A DNA stretch of 38,965 nucleotides from positions 1 to 38,965 of the IMG/VR virus record IMGVR_UViG_3300036781_000235; one strand, written 5' to 3'. Positions 1 through 38,143 of this stretch are shown in pieces (position 1 is the first letter of the stretch; each line of letters begins with the position of its first letter). The notes below the pieces were generated by a model. The model had not been told where the DNA came from. It did not search any database and was given only the letters and a program-made list of their open reading frames with translations. A program made the position numbers and the translations under genes. Origin of the DNA: a virus.

Positions 1-356
1 GGCTTTCGCAGGTTTTGCTTTCCTCGGAGATAAATACCTCTATGGGTCCGGTCGAGGTCTACGGATACGCCGACTTCGTGAGGGGTCCGGAAGTTATCGA
101 CGTGAAAACGACCGGCAATTACATCTTCGGGAAATACCTGCTTTCGCACCAGCGGCCCGTCTACCTTGAGGCCGTAAAGTCGATGGGTATCAACCAGTTC
201 ACCTTCCTTGTGACCGACTTTAAAGAGGTCTATGAGGAGGTTTACCACCGTACCCCCGAGGACCGGGAAAGGATGATCGAGACCGTGGAGAAGATTGTTC
301 AGTTCGCAGAGTTCAACAAGGATCGGATTACGGACAAAAAGTTTTTCGGTCAATAA
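1..356 (+). CDS. PD-(D/E)XK family nuclease, 5' truncated by the window edge
   Basis: The reading frame is open from base 3, so the start lies outside the window. The visible C-terminal part (about 117 residues) carries a GYADFV segment followed by VIDVKTT, matching the G-x-x-D ... (D/E)-x-K core of Cas4/RecB-like PD-(D/E)XK nucleases; the lysine sits in DVKTT. Such phage enzymes process DNA ends in recombination or replication. The window's right end stops inside a Sak4-like ATPase gene, a frequent neighbour of these nucleases, so the two may be adjacent in a circular map. The product ends shortly before a standardised ribosome-binding cassette serving the next gene. The superfamily call is fairly safe; whether it is an exo- or endonuclease cannot be told. 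Confidence 0.75.
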   Translation, partial: LSQVLLSSEINTSMGPVEVYGYADFVRGPEVIDVKTTGNYIFGKYLLSHQRPVYLEAVKSMGINQFTFLVTDFKEVYEEVYHRTPEDRERMIETVEKIVQFAEFNKDRITDKKFFGQ

Positions 357-364
357 ATCACATA

Positions 365-379
365 GACAAGGAGACAAGG
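365..379 (+). promoter_or_regulatory. Repeated ribosome-binding cassette, copy 1
   Basis: GACAAGGAGACAAGG lies directly against the ATG at 380. It is a 7-base unit (GACAAGG) written twice around one A, and the junction creates the Shine-Dalgarno core AAGGAG. The same 15 bases recur at 4722, 31918 and 35814, each time just before a start codon that follows a gap rather than an overlap. Confidence 0.8.
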
Positions 380-628
380 ATGAAGAAGCAGAGACCCGCG
401 TTCCATTACGCCGATGTCACCAAGAGCGCCCGCTTACAGAGGGTTGTAGCCCTCCTGAAGAAAAGGGGCAAGAAGGGTGCGACTACCCGGGAAATCCTGT
501 TCTACGCAAAGGTATGCTCCCCCTGCGGCCCGGAGCTGCGGAAGAACGGCCTCAAGGTGGTCTGTACCTTCGACCATACGGACCCGCAGACAAAATCCAA
601 AATCTACCGGCACGTTCTGGAGGTCTAG
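380..628 (+). CDS. Small basic phage protein, unknown function
   Basis: 82 residues, rich in lysine and arginine in the first half (VALLKKRGKKG, then TTREILFYAKV), suggesting a compact winged-helix-like nucleic-acid-binding fold, although no family is recognised. Two cysteines sit close together in VCSPCGPEL. The start is fixed by the repeated ribosome-binding cassette immediately upstream. The stop codon is followed directly by the ATG of the next gene, so the two are probably translated together. Function unknown; the winged-helix idea is an inference from residue pattern only. Confidence 0.7.
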   Translation: MKKQRPAFHYADVTKSARLQRVVALLKKRGKKGATTREILFYAKVCSPCGPELRKNGLKVVCTFDHTDPQTKSKIYRHVLEV

Positions 629-796
629 ATGGGAACCGCGTGGGGAAGCAACGAGATAAAAGCCATCTACTACGATAAGGCGGAATACAACGCCAAGCAG
701 GCGATTCTGGACGCCTACTACAAATGGCAGAAAGACGCGGAAGAGCAGGCTAGGCCGAAAACACCCGAAGAGGACTGGTTCGAGGGGTTGAAATGA
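629..796 (+). CDS. Small hypothetical protein (55 aa)
   Basis: An ATG directly abuts the previous TAG and opens a 55-residue frame ending in TGA, which overlaps the next ATG as ATGA at 793. The product is acidic and aromatic (AIYYDKAEY, DAYYKWQKD, EEDWFEGLK) and probably helical. The seamless junctions on both sides are the best evidence that it is a real gene. No family recognised. Confidence 0.6.
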   Translation: MGTAWGSNEIKAIYYDKAEYNAKQAILDAYYKWQKDAEEQARPKTPEEDWFEGLK

Positions 797-1167
797 TCGT
801 TGCCGACGAGGTTCCGGATGGAGCGATCCTAGTCCTCAAAAGTGGGGCAGCGGTACTTTGCCGCCAATGCGGAGGGGTCCCGTGCTTTATCGGTCCGTCT
901 AGAATTATTGGCGGGAATCGGTTTAGTACCGCTTGGCCGACAAGTATTCACGGGTACTTCCAGATCCATCACAAGAACAAGGGCGACTCCTCCGATAGTA
1001 TTTACGGGTGGTTCCAGCATAGCGGAGAGCTAGAAGAGGTTGAGCGTTTTGCGTCCTCTATCGAGGTCTCAATGTTTATGGAAGCCTACCCGACTATCAC
1101 TGACGTTTTGTCCCCGGACGAAAACGACCCGGCTACCTGGTGGGCGCTCATTGGAGGCAACGAATGA
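793..1167 (+). CDS. Hypothetical protein, possible paralogue of the 33877 gene
   Basis: 124 residues, starting in an ATGA overlap with the preceding gene. A CRQCGG pair of cysteines lies near residue 23. The C-terminal part contains EEVERFASSIEVSMFMEA followed by a proline-rich acidic tail. The 133-residue product of the gene at 33877 has EEVERYATPTEVVTVSLLL in the same relative position, after a similar N-terminal half with aromatic tyrosine and tryptophan motifs (SIYGWFQHSGE here, GYYRWYSPTEE there), so the two are probably diverged copies. Function unknown. GGAGG at 1153 inside its 3' end is the ribosome site for the next gene. Confidence 0.7.
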   Translation: MIVADEVPDGAILVLKSGAAVLCRQCGGVPCFIGPSRIIGGNRFSTAWPTSIHGYFQIHHKNKGDSSDSIYGWFQHSGELEEVERFASSIEVSMFMEAYPTITDVLSPDENDPATWWALIGGNE

Positions 1168-1619
1168 GCCAAAGATCGCACCACCTTGGGACAATGAAGG
1201 ACGGTAGGTTTATCCCTACAAACCCCGCCGCGTTCAGGGCTGCTTTTGAATATTTCGTAGATGGCAGTAACGTAGAGGTTACCGTTGGAAAGCCCGTCAA
1301 GAAGCGGAGCAACCCGCAGAACGCTTACTTATGGGGGGCCGTTTACGATCATATCTCCCGCAAAACTGGCGCGGAGCCGGACGAGATTCACGCTGCTATG
1401 AAGGCGATGTTCAACTACGAGACCAAGATTGTAAGCGTTGTACAGATGTCCAAAAAGACCGGCAAGCTGAGGACTGTACGCAAGCATATCAAGGTCCCTC
1501 TATCGACCGCAAACCTCTCTACCGAGGAGTTCTCTATCTACGTCGAGAAGGTTCGTGCGTGGGCTTCATCGTTCCTTTGCCTGTATATCCCGGACCCGGG
1601 AGAGGCGGGGTATCGGTGA
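1164..1619 (+). CDS. NinB-like recombination protein
   Basis: Read from ATG 1164, which overlaps the previous TGA and has GGAGG seven bases upstream; the open frame extends to 1140 but without a better start. The 151-residue product has the KKRSNPQNAYLWGAVYDHI segment near residue 45 and ends with TEEFSIYVEKVRAWASSF then YIPDPGE. Both are typical of lambda NinB (Orf)-like proteins, which help load recombinases onto single-stranded DNA. Its neighbours, a PD-(D/E)XK nuclease and a NinG-like protein at 3255, fit a recombination module. A perfect GTAAC-N6-GTTAC palindrome lies inside the gene at 1267. Family call good; biochemical role inferred. Confidence 0.7.
   Translation: MSQRSHHLGTMKDGRFIPTNPAAFRAAFEYFVDGSNVEVTVGKPVKKRSNPQNAYLWGAVYDHISRKTGAEPDEIHAAMKAMFNYETKIVSVVQMSKKTGKLRTVRKHIKVPLSTANLSTEEFSIYVEKVRAWASSFLCLYIPDPGEAGYR
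1267..1282. promoter_or_regulatory. GTAAC-N6-GTTAC palindrome (perfect), inside the NinB-like gene
   Basis: Arms GTAAC and GTTAC are separated by GTAGAG. It is one of seven perfect copies of this word in the window and lies in coding sequence far from any promoter seen, as stoperator sites do. Confidence 0.6.
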
Positions 1620-1861
1620 GGCTGTTTCTAAAAAACGTCTCCTACCAAACCAACGAGGACGATCTGCGCGCCTTGTTCGAGCAGTACGGAAAAGTCGCAT
1701 CCGTCCGCGTCCCGGTAGACCGGTTTTCCGGTCGCCCCCGGGGCTTGGCGTTTGTTGATATGCCAAATATGATCGAGTCGCGCCGCGCTATTGCGGAGTT
1801 GAACGGGAGGGTTATCCGGGAACGCGCCCTCAGTGTTGAGGTATCGAGGGAAAATGAGTAA
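1616..1861 (+). CDS. RRM-type RNA-binding protein
   Basis: GTG start overlapping the previous TGA (GTGA), giving 81 residues that amount to a single RNA-recognition motif. RNP2 is LFLKNV at residues 3-8 and RNP1 is RGLAFVDM at 42-49. Between them is TNEDDLRALFEQYGKVASVRV, the usual first helix and second strand, and ESRRAIAELNG supplies the second helix. Single-RRM proteins of this size are known in cyanobacteria and some other bacteria but are unusual as phage genes. The protein should bind single-stranded RNA; the target is unknown. The structured leader of the replication gene lies about 200 bases downstream in the same operon. Fold call is strong. Confidence 0.88.
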   Translation: MRLFLKNVSYQTNEDDLRALFEQYGKVASVRVPVDRFSGRPRGLAFVDMPNMIESRRAIAELNGRVIRERALSVEVSRENE

Positions 1862-2051
1862 TAAGACCTACAAGGATTTTCCGTATATCCCAGTCCAATG
1901 CCCGGACGGGTTTAGAAAAATCTGGATCCCCGGAGTTGGAGTTTTCAGGTACAAGGGATCATATCCGTCAAAATTGCAGTTTGGTGATCCCTGGAAAGGA
2001 TGGATTCGAGTAAAAGAGATTCGGACTAAATTCCCTCTTGACTTTTTGTAA
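1854..2051 (+). CDS. Small hypothetical protein (65 aa)
   Basis: ATG 1854 lies inside the 3' end of the RRM gene with GAGGG seven bases upstream. The 65-residue product is rich in aromatics, glycine and proline (KDFPYIPVQCPDGF, IWIPGVGVFRYKG, GDPWKGWIRV), consistent with a small beta-barrel or SH3-like fold, though no family is recognised. It is the last gene before the structured leader of the replication gene. Confidence 0.6.
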   Translation: MSNKTYKDFPYIPVQCPDGFRKIWIPGVGVFRYKGSYPSKLQFGDPWKGWIRVKEIRTKFPLDFL

Positions 2052-2068
2052 TAATGCCTTACTTTTGC

Positions 2069-2186
2069 GGAATGCGAAACCCTAACCTATTTGGCAATGT
2101 TAAAATCAAAAACAGATAACCCCTACCCCTCCGACTGGCATTGCCTGGTTGTGGGTTTCGCATTCTCCCATTTGCGGGGGGGTAGG
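2069..2186 (+). ncRNA. Predicted structured leader: three-part stem plus pseudoknot over the ribosome-binding site of the 2195 gene
   Basis: Three complementary segment pairs nest: GAATGCGAAACCC (2070-2082) with GGGTTTCGCATTC (2153-2165), AACC (2084-2087) with GGTT (2147-2150), and GGCAATG (2093-2099) with CATTGCC (2139-2145). The apical loop contains CCTACCCCTCCG (2122-2133), which pairs with CGGGGGGGTAGG (2175-2186) over 12 positions with one G-U, crossing the stem to make a pseudoknot. The 3' partner includes or touches the ribosome-binding region just before ATG 2195, so folding should change translation of the replication gene. Pairings are seen directly; regulation is inferred. Confidence 0.72.
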
Positions 2187-2194
2187 ACTTTTCC

Positions 2195-2866
2195 ATGAAC
2201 AAGCCAGTTTCAACTGTCCAACTTGGGATAGCACGTCTTGGGCTAATATGCTCGGATATTCCCGACAACGCTCAGCTCGGGTTATGGCTTAGAAAGTTCC
2301 ACCGCGCACTTACTCTCAAAGATATAACCCTCGATGAATACGCATCTGAGCTTTTGAGAGAAGTAGAAGAATACCGTGAAAACGAAAGAAACAGGAAGGT
2401 TTCGGCTAAAATTCCAACGTATTCCAACGGATTCCAACGGAAAGACGCGGCTTCCGCTACTAAGCTAGCTAGTCAGTTAGCTAAACAACAAAGAAAACAA
2501 CCCCCTACCCCCTTTCAGGGGGAGGTTTGGTTTTCAAATCCATTGTTCGCTGCGGCTTGGAAGGAGTGGGAGCAAGCCCGAAAAGTCAAGGGTGGGGACC
2601 GGCAGTTAAAAACCCTGAAAACCCTCTCGGGGGAAAACTTGGAATCCGCTACCCAAATCCTACTCCAATCTGCCGATAACCAGTGGAGAGGGCTTTTCCC
2701 GCTCAAGGGGTCTATACCGAACTTCAAACCCAAGCCCGAGCTATCAGGGAAAATGAGCTCGAAGTCATCCGCCGAGTATCTGCAATGGCTTGACCAACAG
2801 GGGAAGATTGCACAGGAAGAGCGAAAAAACGGATTTACATTCAACCCGCCGGGGATAGTGAAATGA
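2195..2866 (+). CDS. Replisome-organiser/helicase-loader-like replication protein
   Basis: 223 residues from ATG 2195. The C-terminal third contains WFSNPLFAAAWKEWEQARK, then RQLKTLKTLSG and ESATQILLQSADNQWRGLFPLKG. The W-x-x-W ... L-x-x-L ... A-x-x-I-x-x-S-x-x-x-x-W-x-G-L-F pattern recurs in the C-terminal domains of phage replisome organisers and DnaD-like helicase loaders. The N-terminal half is helical and charged, and residues 130-170 continue the conserved region after a Gln/Lys/Pro-rich linker. The linker is encoded by three tandem 10-bp repeats and an AT-rich stretch, a possible origin. Upstream lies a predicted pseudoknot leader. Downstream the ATGA overlap couples it to the next gene. 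The replication role is inferred from the motif. Confidence 0.6.
   Translation: MNKPVSTVQLGIARLGLICSDIPDNAQLGLWLRKFHRALTLKDITLDEYASELLREVEEYRENERNRKVSAKIPTYSNGFQRKDAASATKLASQLAKQQRKQPPTPFQGEVWFSNPLFAAAWKEWEQARKVKGGDRQLKTLKTLSGENLESATQILLQSADNQWRGLFPLKGSIPNFKPKPELSGKMSSKSSAEYLQWLDQQGKIAQEERKNGFTFNPPGIVK
2411..2500 (+). repeat. Three tandem 10-bp repeats plus AT-rich stretch: candidate replication origin
   Basis: ATTCCAACGT, ATTCCAACGG and ATTCCAACGG follow each other without spacing at 2411-2440. Because 10 is not a multiple of 3, each copy is read in a different frame, so the repetition is maintained at DNA rather than protein level. It is followed at about 2460-2500 by an AT-rich run with TAGCTA and TTAGCTAA palindromes. 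Iterons plus AT-rich DNA inside an initiator gene is the arrangement of the lambda O gene origin. Origin function is inferred. Confidence 0.5.
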
Positions 2867-3258
2867 GCGACGAGAAAAACGACTCCTTCAAATGCGGGTC
2901 TCAGGGCAGCTACGTTAACGACAAATTTGTAGGCGGCTACGGGTGCCTAATGACGTTTCCGGGCGCGCAGTTCGATTACCACGCTAGAGTCTGCAAAAGA
3001 TGCTCCTCTCGGATGTGCCAAGAGTTCGGCGTTGAACCGCTCGATTCTGGGGCCTTGGCTACGGCGATATCGAACGTCCACCGGTATGTCATAATGATCC
3101 CGAAGTTGGCGGACGTTCCCCACAAATCCCAAGTCCGGATGCTACTGCTTTCCGTAGGGGTTGAAGTTCAGCAACCGAGCGAGCGCGAGATTCAAGGTGG
3201 CTCTCGGATCAAGGCCCGTACCTCCGGTGGGAAATCAATCGTGGGGGAAATCCTATGA
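2863..3258 (+). CDS. Cysteine-containing hypothetical protein
   Basis: 131 residues, starting in an ATGA overlap with the replication gene. The N-terminal half has C11, C28 and a VCKRCSSRMC cluster near residues 43-52, a likely metal-binding knuckle. The remainder is helical and ends with basic Arg/Lys residues. No family recognised. Its position between a replication gene and a NinG-like gene, with overlaps on both sides, suggests a DNA-linked role, but this is guilt by association only. Confidence 0.6.
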   Translation: MSDEKNDSFKCGSQGSYVNDKFVGGYGCLMTFPGAQFDYHARVCKRCSSRMCQEFGVEPLDSGALATAISNVHRYVIMIPKLADVPHKSQVRMLLLSVGVEVQQPSEREIQGGSRIKARTSGGKSIVGEIL

Positions 3259-3791
3259 TGAAGTTCCCGAAGAAGCCACCCAAGGAGCGGGGGAGCGACC
3301 CGGCAAAGACGTGGGTCAGGAAGCTGGATGAAGCCTTCTCGGCATATATCCGGACGCGGGACACAACTCTCGTAGGGGCGGTGAGGCTCGGGAGGTGCAT
3401 CACGTGTACACGCCTCAAGCCTTACGCGGAGTTGGATTGTGGTCATTTTATCGGTCGTCAGTATTGGGCTACTCGGTGGGACCCGACGAATTGCGCGGCC
3501 CAGTGCCGGAAGTGCAACCGTTTTGAAGAGGGACTAAAAGACCTTTTCCGCGTTGCGCTATTGGCGAAGTGGGGAAGCCCGATTATCGAGAGAATGGAAG
3601 CTGGGCACAAACTTGGAAGAAAACCCAGGATTTATGAGTTCCAGATGATTTCGGACCGTATCAAGTCCCTAGGTGAATTGTTGAAACCGGAGCCTAAGAA
3701 AAAGGCGGCGAAAAAGATTTTTAAAAAACCGGTTGACAAAGGATTAATCTTTGATACCTTACGGGATACAGAAATAAAGGAACCCAAATGA
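3255..3791 (+). CDS. ninG: NinG/Rap-like recombination protein
   Basis: 178 residues. The core CITCTRLKPYAELDCGHFIGR (C48, C51, C62, H64) followed by DPTNCAAQCRKCNRFEEG (C80, C84, C87) is the zinc-binding arrangement of lambda NinG (Rap), a branch-point nuclease of the recombination pathway with an HNH-related fold. The start is ATG 3255 in an ATGA overlap; a second ATG follows at once at 3258. The C-terminus is a lysine-rich tail (KPEPKKKAAKKIFKKP). It belongs with the NinB-like gene at 1164 and the nuclease at the window start. Family call is confident; resolvase activity is inferred. Confidence 0.82.
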   Translation: MMKFPKKPPKERGSDPAKTWVRKLDEAFSAYIRTRDTTLVGAVRLGRCITCTRLKPYAELDCGHFIGRQYWATRWDPTNCAAQCRKCNRFEEGLKDLFRVALLAKWGSPIIERMEAGHKLGRKPRIYEFQMISDRIKSLGELLKPEPKKKAAKKIFKKPVDKGLIFDTLRDTEIKEPK

Positions 3792-4057
3792 CTTTCCTAG
3801 AACACTTCGCCCGACCCATCGCCTACGTTGTTTTGTTTGTAGCAACTTGCGATATCGCGGACTTCCGTAACCGCGAAAATAGACCGGGACAAGCTAAGCG
3901 GGCTATACGCCCGCTCTCGGTAGGATGCGCTGTTGTCGCGGTCGTATTTTTGTTTTCTAACTGCGCTCCCGCTCCCGTTCGCAACTACAAACACGGGCCG
4001 CGTTGCGAGGCGGACGGATACCATCGTCATATCGACTCAACGAAAGCGGGGAAGTAA
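3788..4057 (+). CDS. Small membrane protein, unknown function
   Basis: 89 residues, starting in an ATGA overlap with ninG. The first hydrophobic segment (PIAYVVLFVATCDIADF) lies near residues 9-26. A second (LSVGCAVVAVVFLFSNCAPAP) near 43-63 resembles a lipobox at LFSNC but is too far from the N-terminus for a normal lipoprotein. The tail is polar and histidine-rich. Probably a two-pass inner-membrane protein. No homologue recognised. Confidence 0.55.
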   Translation: MTFLEHFARPIAYVVLFVATCDIADFRNRENRPGQAKRAIRPLSVGCAVVAVVFLFSNCAPAPVRNYKHGPRCEADGYHRHIDSTKAGK

Positions 4058-4713
4058 TGGAAACCTATACCACCATCAATCGCGCCGAGCTTGGATGGCC
4101 TTCCGGGCCTTGGGACGGAGAACCCGATAAACTGGTTTGGAGGGACAAGGAAGCCGGCTACCCTTGTATGATCGTCCGGACCCCGTGGAACGGTCATCTG
4201 TGCGGATACGTTGGAGTCCCGCAGGGGCATCCCGATTTCGGGAAGAACTACGATGATGTGGACGTACAGGTTCATATGGGCTTGACGTTTTCGGATTCCT
4301 GCCAAGAGCCTACTCTGGAGCAGTACGAAAAATTCCTCAACCCCGACAAGGACGCGCTGTACAAGCAGTCGGTAGAGGCCGCTAATTTCCCGGACGGGGA
4401 TTCGGCCAGGTACGTTCGCGAGCGCTGCAAGCAGCTCGACAACTGCAAGACCTTCGAGGAATGGCGCGAGTACCAAATGCAGCGCCGTATCTGCCACGTG
4501 AAATGGCCCGGGGAAACCGAGGTATGGTGGCTCGGATTCGACTGCGCCCATTGCGACGATACCGCTCCCGGGGACGCGGCCCGCGATATCAAGTACGCCG
4601 ACAATCCGGATTGGCCTAAGTGGCCCGGAGGCCGTCACGGAACCTACAAGACCGTGGACTTTGTGAAGGCCGAAATTACGGCTTTGGCGATTCAGTTGAA
4701 AGAACACGTGTAA
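4057..4713 (+). CDS. Conserved phage protein of unknown function
   Basis: 218 residues from ATG 4057 (TAATG overlap with the previous stop); the frame is open further upstream but without a good start. Recognisable blocks are GYPCMIVRTPWNGHLCGYVGVP, then GHPDFGKNYDDVDVQVHMGLTFS, and near the C-terminus WWLGFDCAHCDDTAPGD. These blocks recur in a widespread family of uncharacterised phage and bacterial proteins. Conserved Cys, His and Asp residues could form an active or metal site, but no activity is known to me. The gene is followed by a gap and the second ribosome-binding cassette. Confidence 0.7.
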   Translation: METYTTINRAELGWPSGPWDGEPDKLVWRDKEAGYPCMIVRTPWNGHLCGYVGVPQGHPDFGKNYDDVDVQVHMGLTFSDSCQEPTLEQYEKFLNPDKDALYKQSVEAANFPDGDSARYVRERCKQLDNCKTFEEWREYQMQRRICHVKWPGETEVWWLGFDCAHCDDTAPGDAARDIKYADNPDWPKWPGGRHGTYKTVDFVKAEITALAIQLKEHV

Positions 4714-4721
4714 AATAATTC

Positions 4722-4736
4722 GACAAGGAGACAAGG
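4722..4736 (+). promoter_or_regulatory. Repeated ribosome-binding cassette, copy 2
   Basis: Identical 15 bases GACAAGGAGACAAGG placed directly against ATG 4737. It begins a new translational group after the 23-base gap behind the 4057 gene. Confidence 0.8.
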
Positions 4737-5159
4737 ATGAACGGTTCAATGTTTTCAGCCGACAACGGCCTCAAGACCGCGCTACTCAAAGAGGTTACGG
4801 ATATCGACCACCGCGTTCGTCGGGCGCAGGCAGCGATAGCCGCGATGAAGTCGGACCTCGAACGCCGAAAGCTGGTTACCGACCTTCTGGAGAAGTTGGG
4901 CGAGAAGGCCCCCCCCCAAGCGGATTTTCCTGCAGAGGAAAAGGCGGCACCGAAGCCTCGCCTGAAAACCGGCACCTTCGTCAAGGAGTTTATGTCGAAG
5001 CATCCCGGTATCGGATACTCGGTCGATCAGATTGTGGAAGGCATCGGTTGGGAGAAAAATCCCCAGAACCACAAGCTCGTCTACGTCTGCCTACGCGGGT
5101 CCCTTATGCCGGATCGCGTCAGGTGCAATACTCTCGGCCTCTACGAGTGGATCAAGTAA
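4737..5159 (+). CDS. Hypothetical protein with N-terminal coiled coil and C-terminal winged-helix-like domain
   Basis: 140 residues. Residues 12-55 are strongly helical with heptad spacing (LLKEVTDIDHRVRRAQAAI, then MKSDLERRKLV), suggesting dimerisation. A proline- and alanine-rich linker follows. The C-terminal 65 residues (TFVKEFMSKHPGIGYSVDQI, VYVCLRGSLM, then CNTLGLYEWIK) resemble a winged helix of the kind seen in HARE-HTH or replication regulators. The start is set by the repeated ribosome-binding cassette. DNA binding is an inference from pattern. Confidence 0.6.
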   Translation: MNGSMFSADNGLKTALLKEVTDIDHRVRRAQAAIAAMKSDLERRKLVTDLLEKLGEKAPPQADFPAEEKAAPKPRLKTGTFVKEFMSKHPGIGYSVDQIVEGIGWEKNPQNHKLVYVCLRGSLMPDRVRCNTLGLYEWIK

Positions 5160-7687: not shown

Positions 7688-7792
7688 ATGGTTCGCGTGT
7701 TCGAGTTTATCATTCTCGTAGGTTGCATAATCGCAGCGTGCGGGTTCATCGTGAAAGTCGTTAAAAAAACCAACCAAGGAGAAAAGTCATGA
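7688..7792 (+). CDS. Single-pass membrane microprotein (34 aa)
   Basis: The frame MVRVFEFIILVGCIIAACGF, then a lysine-rich tail, ends at a TGA that overlaps the ATG of the SPFH gene (ATGA at 7789). About 18 hydrophobic residues followed by KVVKKTNQGEKS make an inner-membrane anchor with a cytoplasmic basic tail. Translational coupling to the SPFH-like gene suggests that the two membrane proteins work together. Its tail codons hold the AAGGAG for that gene. Confidence 0.55.
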   Translation: MVRVFEFIILVGCIIAACGFIVKVVKKTNQGEKS

Positions 7793-8571
7793 ACTCAAAA
7801 ATCGTTGCATCAATCCTGGGGTTCGTCATCGCCCTATTTGCCCTTATCACCTTTTTCGGCACGTGGGGAACCATCGACGCCGGGCATCGCGGGGTAGTAG
7901 TCCGCATGGGCGCGGTTACCGGAGAAGTCAAGGGGGAGGGGGCCTATTTCAAGGCTCCGTGGATTACGGACGTGATCGAGATGGATGTCCGTACCAAGAA
8001 GGAGCAGGTCCAGACCTCGGGTGCCTCCAAGGACTTGCAGGTGGTGAATGTCGTTGTCGCCCTGAACCTCTCGCTCGACCCCTCCAAGGCCGCGCACGTT
8101 TACCAGAACATCGGGGAGGACTACCTGAATATCGTCGTTGCCCCCGCGATGCAGGAAGCGACCAAGGCGGGCGTAGCCGAGTATACGGCGGAGGAACTTA
8201 TCTCGAAGCGCGAAATCGTTAGGGAGAAGATCGCCCGACTGGTAGCAAGCAAGCTGAGCCCGCTCGGTATCCGAACCGAGGCGTTGAATATCGTGAACTT
8301 CAACTTTTCGCGGTCATTCAACGAGGCCATCGAGGCCAAGGTGACGGCAGAGCAGAATGCTTTGGCATCGAAAAACAAGCTGGAGCAGACCAAGTACGAG
8401 GCTGAGCAGGCTATCGTAACGGCGAGGGGTGACGCGGAAGCCTTGCGCGTCAAGGCGCAGGCTATCGCTCAAAGTCCTCAGGTGCTTCAGCTGAACGCTA
8501 TCGCCAAATGGGACGGTCACCTGCCCCAGTATATGGGTAGCGGCCCCGTTCCCTTCCTCAACCTCAAATAA
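7789..8571 (+). CDS. SPFH/Band 7 (prohibitin-like) membrane protein
   Basis: 260 residues. A transmembrane segment (residues 5-26, IVASILGFVIALFALITFFG) is followed by the SPFH domain with TIDAGHRGVVVRMGAVTGEV, GAYFKAPWITDVIEMDVRT, then VNVVVALNLSLDP and ISKREIVREKIARLV. A long alanine/glutamate-rich coiled coil (about 180-235: EAIEAKVTAEQNALASKNK and following) precedes a glycine/proline tail. SPFH proteins form ring- or cage-like oligomers on membranes and modulate proteases such as FtsH; phage copies exist but their role is unclear. Here it could protect a phage protein from host proteolysis or act at the envelope. Preceded by AAGGAG and coupled to a 34-residue membrane protein. Confidence 0.88.
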   Translation: MNSKIVASILGFVIALFALITFFGTWGTIDAGHRGVVVRMGAVTGEVKGEGAYFKAPWITDVIEMDVRTKKEQVQTSGASKDLQVVNVVVALNLSLDPSKAAHVYQNIGEDYLNIVVAPAMQEATKAGVAEYTAEELISKREIVREKIARLVASKLSPLGIRTEALNIVNFNFSRSFNEAIEAKVTAEQNALASKNKLEQTKYEAEQAIVTARGDAEALRVKAQAIAQSPQVLQLNAIAKWDGHLPQYMGSGPVPFLNLK

Positions 8572-29835: not shown

Positions 29836-30957
29836 ATGCGCGTTATTGACCTCAATATCTACGAATTGCGGCGGGTTGTTCGCCGGAACAAGCTACTTGC
29901 CCCCGGGCAGGGCTCCCCTACCAAAGACGAATGCCTTGCCCTCCTCTCCAAAGCGGGGGTTACCGAGGTTCAGGACGAGCAGGCCAAAGCCCCCGAAACC
30001 CCGTTTGAGGGCGTCCCGGGAGGAGCGCAGACGGCCCGTACAGCTCTTGAAAGCCTCCTCAAAGGGGCCGAATTCGGGGAATCCCTCGCCAATCGCTTGG
30101 GGGACTTGGAAAACGCCTTTGGAGCCTCCAAGGCCCGGGTTGAGGCTGCTATTGATAGCGCTGCCCGGGAGTTGGAAAAAAAGTTGGGCGTTGCCCGTAG
30201 GGTTGAATACGTCCCCGCCCCCGACAAAGCCCCCAAGGACTTGGGAGCCCAACACGAGGCTTTCCCTACCCTCCTCAAGACCCTTGCTGCGGGCCTGCAC
30301 GCCTTTATCGTTGGCCCCGCAGGGTCCGGTAAAACCTACGGTGCCGAGACGGCAGCCAAAGCCTTGGACCTCCCCTTTTACCCTCAATCCTTTGGCCCTC
30401 AAACAACGGCCACGGCCTTGTTCGGCTATCAAGACGCCAACGGGAACTATGTCCGCACAATCTTTCGGGAAGCTTTTGAGCACGGGGGCGTCTACCTCTT
30501 GGACGAGGGTGACCGTGCCTCCTCGCACGTTATCACGGGGCTCAATGCGGCCCTCGCCAACGGTTTCTGCTCCTTTCCGGACGGGGTAATCAAGCGGCAC
30601 GCCTCGTTCCGTTGCGTCCTCGCCGGGAATACTTGGGGCAACGGGGCAACCCGCGAATACGTTGGGGCGCAGCAGTTGGACGCCTCCACCCTCTCCCGCT
30701 TTGTCTTTATCGCTTGGGGATACGACGAAGCATTGGAGCGCAGTATTGTTCCGGACACGGCTTGGGTCAAGCGGGTACAAGCTATTCGCGCCTCGGTCCT
30801 CGCCTTGGGCGTCCGGATGATCGTCTGCCCCCGCACATCCGCGCACGGGGCTCGCCTTATCGCAGCCGGGTTTACCCGGGAGGAGGCCGAGGATATGACG
30901 ATCTGGCGGGGTGCCGATTCCGCAACCCGGGCCAAAGTCTTGGGAGGTGTCAAGTGA
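29836..30957 (+). CDS. MoxR-like AAA+ ATPase, copy A
   Basis: 373 residues. Walker A GPAGSGKT (160-167), Walker B VYLLDEGD (219-226), sensor 1 in CVLAGNTWGNG, arginine-finger region LDASTLSRFVFI. The N-terminal 130 residues include a coiled coil (VEAAIDSAARELEKKLG). MoxR-type ATPases remodel or activate a partner protein, usually encoded next door. The partner here would be the 30954 gene. A diverged second copy with the same neighbour order lies at 35829. Codon choice is distinctive (Val mostly GTT/GTC, few Leu CTG). Family call is firm; the target is unknown. Confidence 0.85.
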   Translation: MRVIDLNIYELRRVVRRNKLLAPGQGSPTKDECLALLSKAGVTEVQDEQAKAPETPFEGVPGGAQTARTALESLLKGAEFGESLANRLGDLENAFGASKARVEAAIDSAARELEKKLGVARRVEYVPAPDKAPKDLGAQHEAFPTLLKTLAAGLHAFIVGPAGSGKTYGAETAAKALDLPFYPQSFGPQTTATALFGYQDANGNYVRTIFREAFEHGGVYLLDEGDRASSHVITGLNAALANGFCSFPDGVIKRHASFRCVLAGNTWGNGATREYVGAQQLDASTLSRFVFIAWGYDEALERSIVPDTAWVKRVQAIRASVLALGVRMIVCPRTSAHGARLIAAGFTREEAEDMTIWRGADSATRAKVLGGVK

Positions 30958-31826
30958 ACTACTCAAGCCACGATATGGAGGCGCAGCCCCGGGAGGGCGT
31001 CAAGGGTTGGATTATGGAGGGCGGCATTGAAGAGGTCCTGCGCGCCTCCTCGCACGCCAACGTCCGTAAATCCGACTCCTCCCAAAAAGCGGGGGACGGC
31101 AGCTTTCAGGCTTGCAAGTCCTTTGAGGCGGCAGACAACCTCGCCCGTTACGGTTGGACCGAGGGCCGCACGTCCATAGAGGCGGTTGTCACCAGCGTTG
31201 GCCTTGGGAGTTACGCAAGGGTCCAAGAGTTTGTCCCGGACGTTTCCGGGGCGGTTGTGGACGTTGCAGCGGCTATCGCGGGGGTTCCGGAATCAATGCT
31301 GGAATTCGTTGAGGTAGACAAGCGGGGAGCGGGTAAGTTGATCCGCCTCGTTGTCAACTGCGTGGCGCACGCGGGGATTCACGCGGATACCCTCAAGCGC
31401 AGGGGCGCAGCGGTCCTCGCCTTGGTAGACGCCTTGGAATCTGCGGGCCTCGTTGCCGAGGTTGACATTGTTTTCTTTGAGCACTCAACGGGCGACCACG
31501 TGACGGTTGTTCACGTCAAACGGGCCGGGGAAACCTTTGATCCGGACCGCCTCGCCTATGCCGTTGCGCACCCCGACTTTTTCCGGCGGCATATCTTTGC
31601 GACTTGGGAGCGGCAGGCCCCGCAAGTCCGCAAAGAGCTGGGCGTAGAGGGGGGTTCCTACGGTTACCCCAAGGACGCCGAGGACGTAGGGTTTGAAATC
31701 GCAGAGGGCGATATCTACCTGCCCCGGGTACAGGACAACGGGGGCGATTGGGCCAACGAAAAGACGGTTAAGGCTTGGGTCCTCCAACAGCTCGCAGAGC
31801 AGGGCGTGGAGGCCGAGGCGGTCTGA
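30954..31826 (+). CDS. Partner of AAA+ copy A, unknown phage family
   Basis: 290 residues from GTG 30954 (GTGA overlap with the ATPase). Shared blocks with the 37133 product are NLARYGWTEGRTSIEAV (there EMIRRGWPEGTKSVRKL), IRLVVNCVAHAGI (VHFVVNAGMSCAQ), DTLKRRGAAVLALVDALESAG (DTLRRRGAAICAAIDVLEAMG) and a C-terminal FFRRHIFATWE (MMRRLVFAYFE). The fold has alternating alpha and beta and resembles, in layout, the VWA-like partners of MoxR ATPases, but no MIDAS motif is obvious. The unit ATPase plus partner is duplicated in this phage. Confidence 0.7.
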   Translation: MNYSSHDMEAQPREGVKGWIMEGGIEEVLRASSHANVRKSDSSQKAGDGSFQACKSFEAADNLARYGWTEGRTSIEAVVTSVGLGSYARVQEFVPDVSGAVVDVAAAIAGVPESMLEFVEVDKRGAGKLIRLVVNCVAHAGIHADTLKRRGAAVLALVDALESAGLVAEVDIVFFEHSTGDHVTVVHVKRAGETFDPDRLAYAVAHPDFFRRHIFATWERQAPQVRKELGVEGGSYGYPKDAEDVGFEIAEGDIYLPRVQDNGGDWANEKTVKAWVLQQLAEQGVEAEAV

Positions 31827-35828: not shown

Positions 35829-37136
35829 ATGAAAAAAATTGACTTTGAAGCGCACGACATTCACGAGTTGCGTAGAATGGCCTGGGATCAGTTCAACGAG
35901 AACGAGCTACCTACCGGGTGGTGTTCCGTTGCCCGCCGGGACGAGGTTATAACCGCAATCGAGAGCGGGAGAATTCCCGAGCGGTTTACCGCCGATCACC
36001 TTACCCCCGAAGCGCGGGCCGTCAAGGAGTCCGGAGGCAATATCGGTGATATCGTTGAGGACAAGGACCTGCGCAAGCACGTCCAGAAAATCCTCAACGA
36101 TATGTCGGGGATCGTCAAGACCAACAAGGGCGAAGCGGACGCCAAGCTGGATTTCCTTGGCAAGAAACTTATCTCCACCATCCAGATGCTCAACAAGACC
36201 GGGGAAATTGTGGTCGCCGCGAAGGAGGCTGCGGACAAAGCCCTGGCGCAAGTCGAGAAGCGGATCATGGAATCCTCTCCGGTCAAGCTGGTAACTCCCG
36301 AGGGGGTAGAGGTGGACGCGGGACGGCAGCACAAGGCTTTCCCGATGCTCTGCCGCCTCCTCGCTCTGAAGCAGCACGTCTTTATCTGCGGCCCCGCCGG
36401 CACGGGCAAGACTCGCGCCTGCTTCGAGTACGCCAAGGCGGTCAAGACGCCTATCCACGTGCAGAGCTTCTGCATGCAATCCACCAAGGCTGACGTTGTG
36501 GGCTACCGCTCCCCCCATGACGGCTCCATCGTTCGCACTCCTTTCCGGGAGGCCTACGAGAACGGTGGCGTGTACGTTGCCGACGAAGGCGATTCCGCCA
36601 ACTCCAACGTGTTCCTTGTCCTCAACTCCGGTCTGGAACAGGACGGCTATACCTTCCCCGATGGGTGGGTAAAGCGTCACGATACCTTCCGTTGCGTCCT
36701 TATCGGCAACACCTGGGGCGGTGGAGCGGACCGGCAGTATGTCGGACGCGCACAACTTGACGCGGCAACCATCTCGCGCTTCTCGAAACTCTGGTGGGGC
36801 TACGACGAACCGTTTGAGTCCTATATCTCGGGGAATCATCATTGGGCCAAGCGGGTTCACGAAATCCGCGCCGCCGTCGAGAAGAACGGGGACCGCGTTC
36901 TGGTTACGGCCCGTGCGGCTATCCTCGGGGCGCAGTGGCTGGCCGCCGGTGGAACCTACGAGGAGGCCGAGGTCTTGTATATCTACGAGGGGCTTCCCGT
37001 CACCGTGGTCAACAAGATCAAGGAGAACATTCGCAAGGTCGCGGACGTTCAGAAGGAGGCCGACAAAATCAAGGCCGAGGGTCCGAAGGCCAAGACGGGC
37101 GGCAAGATCCACACGATGGAGGCGGTGGCCGCATGA
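35829..37136 (+). CDS. MoxR-like AAA+ ATPase, copy B
   Basis: 435 residues. Walker A GPAGTGKT (188-195), Walker B VYVADEGD (248-255), sensor region CVLIGNTWGGG and LDAATISRFSKLWWGYDE. The N-terminus (DFEAHDIHELRRMAWDQFNE) aligns with the start of copy A, and the middle has a longer coiled coil (VVAAKEAADKALAQVEKRI). The C-terminus adds a lysine-rich helix absent from copy A. Identical motif order and the same kind of downstream partner (37133) show that the pair was duplicated as a unit. Ordinary phage codon usage, unlike copy A. Confidence 0.85.
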   Translation: MKKIDFEAHDIHELRRMAWDQFNENELPTGWCSVARRDEVITAIESGRIPERFTADHLTPEARAVKESGGNIGDIVEDKDLRKHVQKILNDMSGIVKTNKGEADAKLDFLGKKLISTIQMLNKTGEIVVAAKEAADKALAQVEKRIMESSPVKLVTPEGVEVDAGRQHKAFPMLCRLLALKQHVFICGPAGTGKTRACFEYAKAVKTPIHVQSFCMQSTKADVVGYRSPHDGSIVRTPFREAYENGGVYVADEGDSANSNVFLVLNSGLEQDGYTFPDGWVKRHDTFRCVLIGNTWGGGADRQYVGRAQLDAATISRFSKLWWGYDEPFESYISGNHHWAKRVHEIRAAVEKNGDRVLVTARAAILGAQWLAAGGTYEEAEVLYIYEGLPVTVVNKIKENIRKVADVQKEADKIKAEGPKAKTGGKIHTMEAVAA

Positions 37137-38143
37137 GCGTGGTTACCCTCAAGGAAATCCCCATCAAACCCTTCAAGGAAAGGAACAAGCAGGATGTCAC
37201 CAGACTCCTGATTGGCTCCCCTACCTTGGAGGAGATTATCACCGCCGCGACTACCCCCCTTGAGCAAGAGTGCAAGGGGCCGGACTTTGACGAGAAGGAT
37301 CGTGCGGCTCCGGAGAAAATGTACCGGCAGGATTGGTACGGAAATACCAGCATTGAGAAATCGGTGGAGATGATCCGCCGGGGGTGGCCCGAGGGAACCA
37401 AGTCGGTCCGCAAGCTGTCGGAGGCTATCAGCGCCCCGATACTGCGCCAAGCCCGCAAGGTCGTACACCACGACGTTTGCCCGGGGCATTGGATTGACGA
37501 GGACCGCTATCTACGCGGAGAGCCCGAGGTCTGGGGGGAAATTGTAGACTCGGACGAACTGGTGGACCAAGTAGGCGGGAAGTTCGTTCACTTCGTGGTC
37601 AACGCGGGAATGTCCTGCGCCCAGTGCAACTCGCTCAACTGTACTACCGAGCCGGTACGCATTGATACCCTTAGACGCCGGGGCGCGGCGATCTGCGCGG
37701 CTATCGACGTTTTGGAGGCGATGGGATTCCGCACCCGGGTAACCTACTTGGTATTGATCGAAACCCCGAACCGAGGCACCAACTCTACGATGATGGCCCT
37801 GCGGTTTCCGGTCAAGGAGTACCACGACTACTTGGATATGGACGCCCTTACCTTTCGCCTTGCCCATCCCGCGATGATGCGCCGCCTCGTTTTCGCGTAC
37901 TTTGAGCATATGGACTTGGCGACCAAACGGGCTTTTTTGTTTCGGGGAAACTCCGGAACGGTCGGAACCTACGGCCTGATCCGGAACAACTTCCCCAAGG
38001 AACTCGGACTCGAAGATGACGGAGATGCGATTGTGTACATCCCCTCGGTCACGGGGAATCCCGGCAACTTCCAGTCTGACGCAAACGCCGAACGCTTCTG
38101 CAAGGACATTCTTGCCAAGCAGGGTATTCGGTTCATCAGTTAA
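37133..38143 (+). CDS. Partner of AAA+ copy B, unknown phage family
   Basis: 336 residues from ATG 37133 (ATGA overlap). Longer than its paralogue at 30954 by an N-terminal extension (KEIPIKPFKERNKQDVTRLL) and a CAQCNSLNC cluster (three cysteines) after the VHFVVNAGM strand, a likely metal knuckle missing from copy A. DTLRRRGAAICAAIDVLEAMG and MMRRLVFAYFEHMDL are shared. Probably the substrate or effector of ATPase B; no enzyme motif recognised. Confidence 0.7.
   Translation: MSVVTLKEIPIKPFKERNKQDVTRLLIGSPTLEEIITAATTPLEQECKGPDFDEKDRAAPEKMYRQDWYGNTSIEKSVEMIRRGWPEGTKSVRKLSEAISAPILRQARKVVHHDVCPGHWIDEDRYLRGEPEVWGEIVDSDELVDQVGGKFVHFVVNAGMSCAQCNSLNCTTEPVRIDTLRRRGAAICAAIDVLEAMGFRTRVTYLVLIETPNRGTNSTMMALRFPVKEYHDYLDMDALTFRLAHPAMMRRLVFAYFEHMDLATKRAFLFRGNSGTVGTYGLIRNNFPKELGLEDDGDAIVYIPSVTGNPGNFQSDANAERFCKDILAKQGIRFIS

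Follow-up and report, generated by a model that had tools for sequence, protein, structure and literature searches.

The gap between cistrons upstream of a putative phage replication gene encodes a long stem whose apical loop is complementary to the Shine-Dalgarno (SD) sequence of that gene. The gap lies in a 38,965-bp virus sequence that was analyzed over its entire length and is referred to here as the window. Both the stem and the loop helix are present, the 3' strand of the loop helix is the SD itself, structures of this kind are rare in the window, and a short open reading frame runs into the stem from its 5' side (Table 1). The element is probably, if unproven, a leader of the SD-sequestering type. 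We tentatively favor the reading that it acts in cis as an RNA leader, which limits translation of the replication initiator by pairing of the loop with the SD until this pairing is opened. We infer that the two helices form in vivo and that they repress the gene, and we propose below how they may be opened.

Table 1. Coordinates of the leader, of the neighboring genes and of the candidate origin in the window
Feature	Position	Strand	Pairing or context	Source
NinB-like gene	1164-1619	+ (rightward)		ORF list, profile matches
RRM RNA-binding protein, 81 aa	1616-1861	+	two genes 5' of the replication gene	Pfam RRM_1, 2.9e-19
65-aa ORF	1854-2051	+	adjoins the leader on its 5' side	ORF list
Gap between cistrons, 143 nt	2052-2194	+	holds the element	ORF list and sequence
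Putative leader ORF, 21 codons, MPYFCGMRNPNLFGNVKIKNR	2054-2119	+		translation of the sequence
Lower stem, 5' arm	2069-2082	+	pairs with 2153-2166, 13 Watson-Crick + 1 G-U	
Middle stem, 5' arm	2083-2087	+	pairs with 2147-2151, 4 Watson-Crick + 1 G-U	
Upper stem, 5' arm	2093-2102	+	pairs with 2136-2145, 8 Watson-Crick + 2 G-U	
Loop segment, A-rich, then CCCCTACCCC	2102-2129	+	second copy at 2484-2511	
Loop-helix strand, anti-SD-like, in apical loop, CCTACCCCTCCG	2122-2133	+	12 pairs with 2175-2186	
Upper stem, 3' arm	2136-2145	+	pairs with 2093-2102	
Middle stem, 3' arm	2147-2151	+	pairs with 2083-2087	
Lower stem, 3' arm	2153-2166	+	pairs with 2069-2082	
Linker from stem to SD strand, 8 nt	2167-2174	+	too short for the whole stem	geometry estimate
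Loop-helix 3' strand and SD region of the replication gene, CGGGGGGGTAGG	2175-2186	+		16S anti-SD pairing
Replication gene, 223 aa, ATG 2195	2195-2866	+	C-terminal part lambda-O-type-like	
Candidate iterons, three tandem 10-bp repeats, ATTCCAACG(T/G)	2411-2440	+	inside the replication gene	
Second copy of the loop segment	2484-2511	+	inside the replication gene, beside the iterons	sequence match
NinG-like gene	3255-3791	+ (rightward)	one gene after the replication gene	

The left end of the window is occupied by rightward genes, most of which overlap by a few bases. The 143-nt gap stands out in this operon, as its other genes mostly overlap or abut. Strong SDs precede nearly every gene of the genome, and G-rich SDs are common. 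Bacteroidota make little use of SDs, and the strong SDs of the genome thus argue against a host from this group. An initial annotation of the sequence had recognized an RRM protein encoded upstream of the element, and the Pfam match listed in Table 1 bears this out. The protein also matches NCBIfam Rbp_regulator at 9.7e-25, under the cut-off of that family, and has matches in just three annotated phage records.

The stem had been described as three segments of 13, 4, and 7 bp, which is exact for Watson-Crick pairs; with wobble pairs included, the segments grow to 14, 5, and 10, giving 29 pairs. In the lower stem, GAATGCGAAACCC at positions 2070-2082 makes a perfect 13-bp pairing with 2153-2165. 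The middle stem contains four Watson-Crick pairs (2084-2087 with 2147-2150) and a wobble between U2083 and G2151, and the core of the upper stem (GGCAATG, 2093-2099 with 2139-2145) contributes seven Watson-Crick pairs, extended by two G-U pairs and one A-U pair. The stem contains a 5-nt bulge and an internal loop and ends in a 33-nt apical loop. We scanned the + strand for folding in 1,556 100-nt windows against dinucleotide shuffles, where a window centered on the stem ranks first with a z-score of -7.5; this window was positioned on the stem afterwards, and the fixed-grid window over the stem has a z-score of -4.4 and ranks third. That this is the strongest fold holds for the + strand, which is the strand scanned, and none of the other gaps of the operon ranks high in the same scan. 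When the 143-nt gap was shuffled 1000 times with its dinucleotides preserved, a perfect 13-bp stem never appeared; another perfect 13-bp inverted repeat occurs in the window at positions 36049-36103, within the second AAA ATPase gene. The two complementary strands of the stem region fold about equally well, and thus a role as RNA or as DNA is not told by the fold alone. A terminator was excluded, as no U-tract follows the stem on its 3' side. We likewise rejected a small inverted-repeat mobile element, as the stem lacks an adjacent flanking duplication and its arm is not copied elsewhere in the window above chance. No Rfam family reaches its gathering score in the window, where the best sub-threshold matches are at chance level, and a known RNA family was excluded on this ground.

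The initial annotation had further noted 12 complementary bases with one G-U between the apical loop and a downstream strand. We find these bases to be contiguous (2122-2133 with 2175-2186, the wobble being U2130-G2178), with a calculated duplex energy of -26.8 kcal/mol. The downstream strand had been said to overlap the ribosome-binding region in front of ATG 2195. It is in fact the SD itself: its G-run at 2176-2183 matches the 16S anti-SD with -11.3 kcal/mol, among the strongest values in the genome, and the loop strand would thus act as an anti-SD mimic. Helices of 12 pairs were found in 0.24% of random segment pairs of the same size drawn from the 38,965-nt window, and in 0.86% of trials when the loop and the downstream segment were each shuffled internally. 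A survey of the whole window for hairpins with loop-to-downstream pairing returned six cases with at least 9 pairs, the leader being the strongest, and the combination of a 13-bp stem with a 12-pair loop helix was reached in none of 12 shuffled windows.

An H-type pseudoknot had been proposed for these two helices. Both of them are present, but the simple form, in which the whole stem stays intact, does not hold, as an 8-nt linker faces 29 bp of stem. Formation of both helices would require either that 3-5 basal pairs be opened or that the stem be bent, for which the 5-nt bulge is a candidate site. In a crude sum of energies, an estimate rather than a measurement that includes the linker length constraint and a penalty of 9.6 kcal/mol, the pseudoknot is still favored, with -55 to -56 kcal/mol versus -48.8 kcal/mol for the nested fold. 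When the 5' arm of the stem is removed, the remainder is predicted to refold as an ordinary hairpin (-33.3 kcal/mol) that contains the same 12-bp SD helix. Hiding of the SD thus does not depend on a pseudoknot.

The putative leader ORF starts 2 nt past the stop codon of the preceding 65-aa ORF, continues through the 5' arm of the stem, and terminates 2 nt before the loop pairing strand. We looked for an SD of its own and found none, and it would thus be fed only by termination-reinitiation; the stop of the 65-aa ORF could be coupled to the leader ATG at 2054.

Together, these features suggest a mechanism for a translation-limiting leader. The long stem would present the anti-SD-like loop, which would pair with the G-rich SD ~42 nt downstream, either as a pseudoknot with its basal stem pairs opened or, after unfolding that starts at the 5' side of the stem, as a plain hairpin that retains the SD helix. 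The start site would be hidden in both forms, and the default state would be low expression of the initiator. Release may come from a ribosome on the leader ORF, from a protein, or from cleavage of the stem by RNase III. We prefer the ribosome because of the position of the 21-codon ORF: after terminating on the upstream gene and reinitiating, it would unfold the 5' arm of the stem and, on reaching the stop codon, mask the loop strand so that the SD becomes accessible. The missing SD of the leader ORF is a real weakness of this route. Against a translation-limiting leader as such speak the strain in the complete pseudoknot, the equal folding of both strands, the absence of homologues from the collections searched, the stronger pairing of a second loop copy (2484-2511) with the SD strand, and the repetition of the loop motif beside the candidate iterons, which a function at the DNA level would explain equally well.

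The product of the downstream gene had been termed a replisome organizer. It is plausibly a lambda-O-like initiator, as suggested by the iterons in the gene and by a weak match of the C-terminal part alone to phrog_678 'replication initiation O-like' (E value 0.00098, about 1e-3). No match to the protein was found in Pfam or NCBIfam, and a single-sequence structure model (pLDDT 43.5) was too poor for use. The iterons are out of the reading frame, and selection at the DNA level is likely because their period is not divisible by 3. They are followed on the 3' side by an A-rich stretch and then by a C-run, and we regard this arrangement as a candidate lambda-type origin. The loop segment of the leader recurs here: 20 of 28 positions are identical between the two copies, no other segment of the 39-kb window matches better, and shuffles of the gene give a P of 0.001. 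For the C-run of the second copy, the calculated pairing energy with the SD strand is -31.7 kcal/mol, which is stronger than that of the loop. A small hairpin, CCCCCTTTCAGGGGG, is located within the coding region directly 3' of the second loop copy (2484-2522).

These repeats bring up the main rival to an RNA leader, in which CCTACCCC works together with the iterons in a DNA-level origin, as a motif for binding or unwinding, and the complementarity between loop and SD is a by-product of its inverted copies. CCTACCCC has only three occurrences in the 38,965 bp, and a stretch of 390 bp around the replication gene contains them all, as two direct copies and one inverted copy with sites that include 2122 and 2504. 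Such clustering is seen for 4 of the 5,143 8-mers that have at least three copies, and the iteron is another of these four. The duplication of the 28-nt loop segment beside the iterons points in the same direction, as does the location of lambda-type origins within the initiator gene. However, the 12 pairs run past the 8-mer and fall on the SD, and a DNA-binding site would not need a nested 13 + 4 + 7 stem with a 33-nt loop. We consider an origin element as the sole explanation unlikely; the two roles are not exclusive, and an RNA leader could coexist with a DNA-level origin. It is less likely still that the stem is real and the loop helix is a coincidental match of a C-run to a G-rich SD, with the stem alone contributing to mRNA stability, insulation, or spacing. 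The genome is indeed rich in G-rich SDs, and the neighborhood contains other C-rich stretches with calculated pairing energies of -23 to -32 kcal/mol to the SD strand, but 12 contiguous pairs are expected in less than 1% of cases for segments of this size and composition.

RNase III sites are found between cistrons in the early transcripts of T7 and in lambda leader transcripts, and our stem, with its 29 pairs, its internal loop, its place between cistrons, and the strongest fold of the + strand, would suit a processing site. Cleavage there would define the ends of the mRNAs or make the SD accessible, and the complementarity of the loop would be secondary. We rank this reading slightly below a chance loop helix. 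The absence of other operon gaps high in the fold scan argues against a genome-wide processing scheme, and the 12-bp SD helix would be left without an explanation. A direct role for the RRM protein, which the initial annotation had put forward, or for the initiator as candidate ligand that binds the single-stranded A-rich/C-rich loop and switches the leader appears least probable. The RRM gene belongs to the same operon, the loop copy sits at the putative origin, and for a related RRM protein of the RbpB type, the main target in Bacteroides is single-stranded RNA (PMC11697453); yet co-occurrence of the RRM gene with the element was looked for in other phages and not found. We also thought of the loop as an origin mimic in the initiator mRNA, that is, an RNA copy of the A-rich/C-rich segment of the origin (2484-2511), which the initiator or an RRM-type partner would bind like the melted origin and which would tune translation via the loop:SD pseudoknot. 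The chances of this appear very low as well, only just above those of the ligand reading. An RNA leader that limits initiator translation remains the reading we prefer.

We compared this leader to known systems. The initial annotation had drawn a parallel to the pseudoknots that control rep translation in IncB/ColIb-type plasmids. In the leaders of IncI-alpha (ColIb-P9) repZ and of rep in IncB and IncL/M plasmids, a pseudoknot upstream of the ribosome-binding site is needed for translation and is blocked by an antisense RNA (PMC8383071). Like the phage leader, they combine an initiator gene with a loop pairing just before it, and a short ORF overlaps the structure. The parallel is inverted in sign, however: the activating plasmid pseudoknot leaves the SD free, whereas the phage loop helix contains the SD (2176-2186), would bury it, and should thus repress. 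In the plasmids, translation of the leader peptide opens an inhibitory structure; the putative phage leader ORF is present but has no SD. A search of the - strand over positions 1-5000 with a sigma-70 model, which may not be that of the host, gave no match to an antisense promoter. We know of no sequence relation between the phage leader and these plasmid leaders.

The SAM-II and preQ1 riboswitches resemble the phage leader in that their pseudoknot helix includes the SD, but the phage helix is longer, has no Rfam match, and shows no recognizable ligand pocket. With lambda O and its ori, our phage has in common an O-like C-terminal region and iterons that lie in the gene, out of frame, and are followed by A-rich sequence, but it differs in having three iterons of 10 bp. 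To our knowledge, no leader pseudoknot precedes lambda O. The operator of T4 gene 32 is a pseudoknot of ~28 nt located 5' of the SD that nucleates gp32 binding (PMC535899). There too, a pseudoknot precedes the start of a replication-related phage gene, but the SD lies outside the small T4 pseudoknot, whereas the ~120-nt element described here includes it and the product is initiator-like.

Relatives with the replication gene or the element were found in none of the viral contigs, GTDB genomes, and annotated phage records searched, collections from which near relatives may be missing. As queries we used the replication protein, NinB, NinG, the RRM protein, terminase, and portal, together with the 5' arm of the stem and a wobble-tolerant pattern for the loop helix. 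The nearest relative of the terminase, encoded on a 13-kb fragment, is 47% identical to it across most of its length. In contig L082, which carries NinB, we recognized no comparable replication gene next to it.

Control of the initiator in lambda-type phages is thought to act mainly through transcription and proteolysis. If our reading is correct, translation of an O-like gene is locked by an anti-SD loop, which adds an RNA layer to the control of phage replication and gives phages an equivalent, with the sign reversed, of the plasmid rep pseudoknot leaders. The duplication of the loop sequence at the putative origin would make the link between origin and leader concrete and testable.

We made three further observations in other parts of the window. 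At 29836-31826 and again at 35829-38143, a gene for an AAA_5 (MoxR-like) ATPase precedes a similar partner gene, in what looks like a duplicated module; the profile scan refers to the first ATPase, and the likeness was judged by eye. What looks like a phage-encoded membrane protein of the SPFH/prohibitin family, again judged by eye, is located at 7789-8571. Three different genes have the leader sequence ACAAGGAGACAAGGATGA in common, which is found upstream of positions 380, 4737, and 35829.
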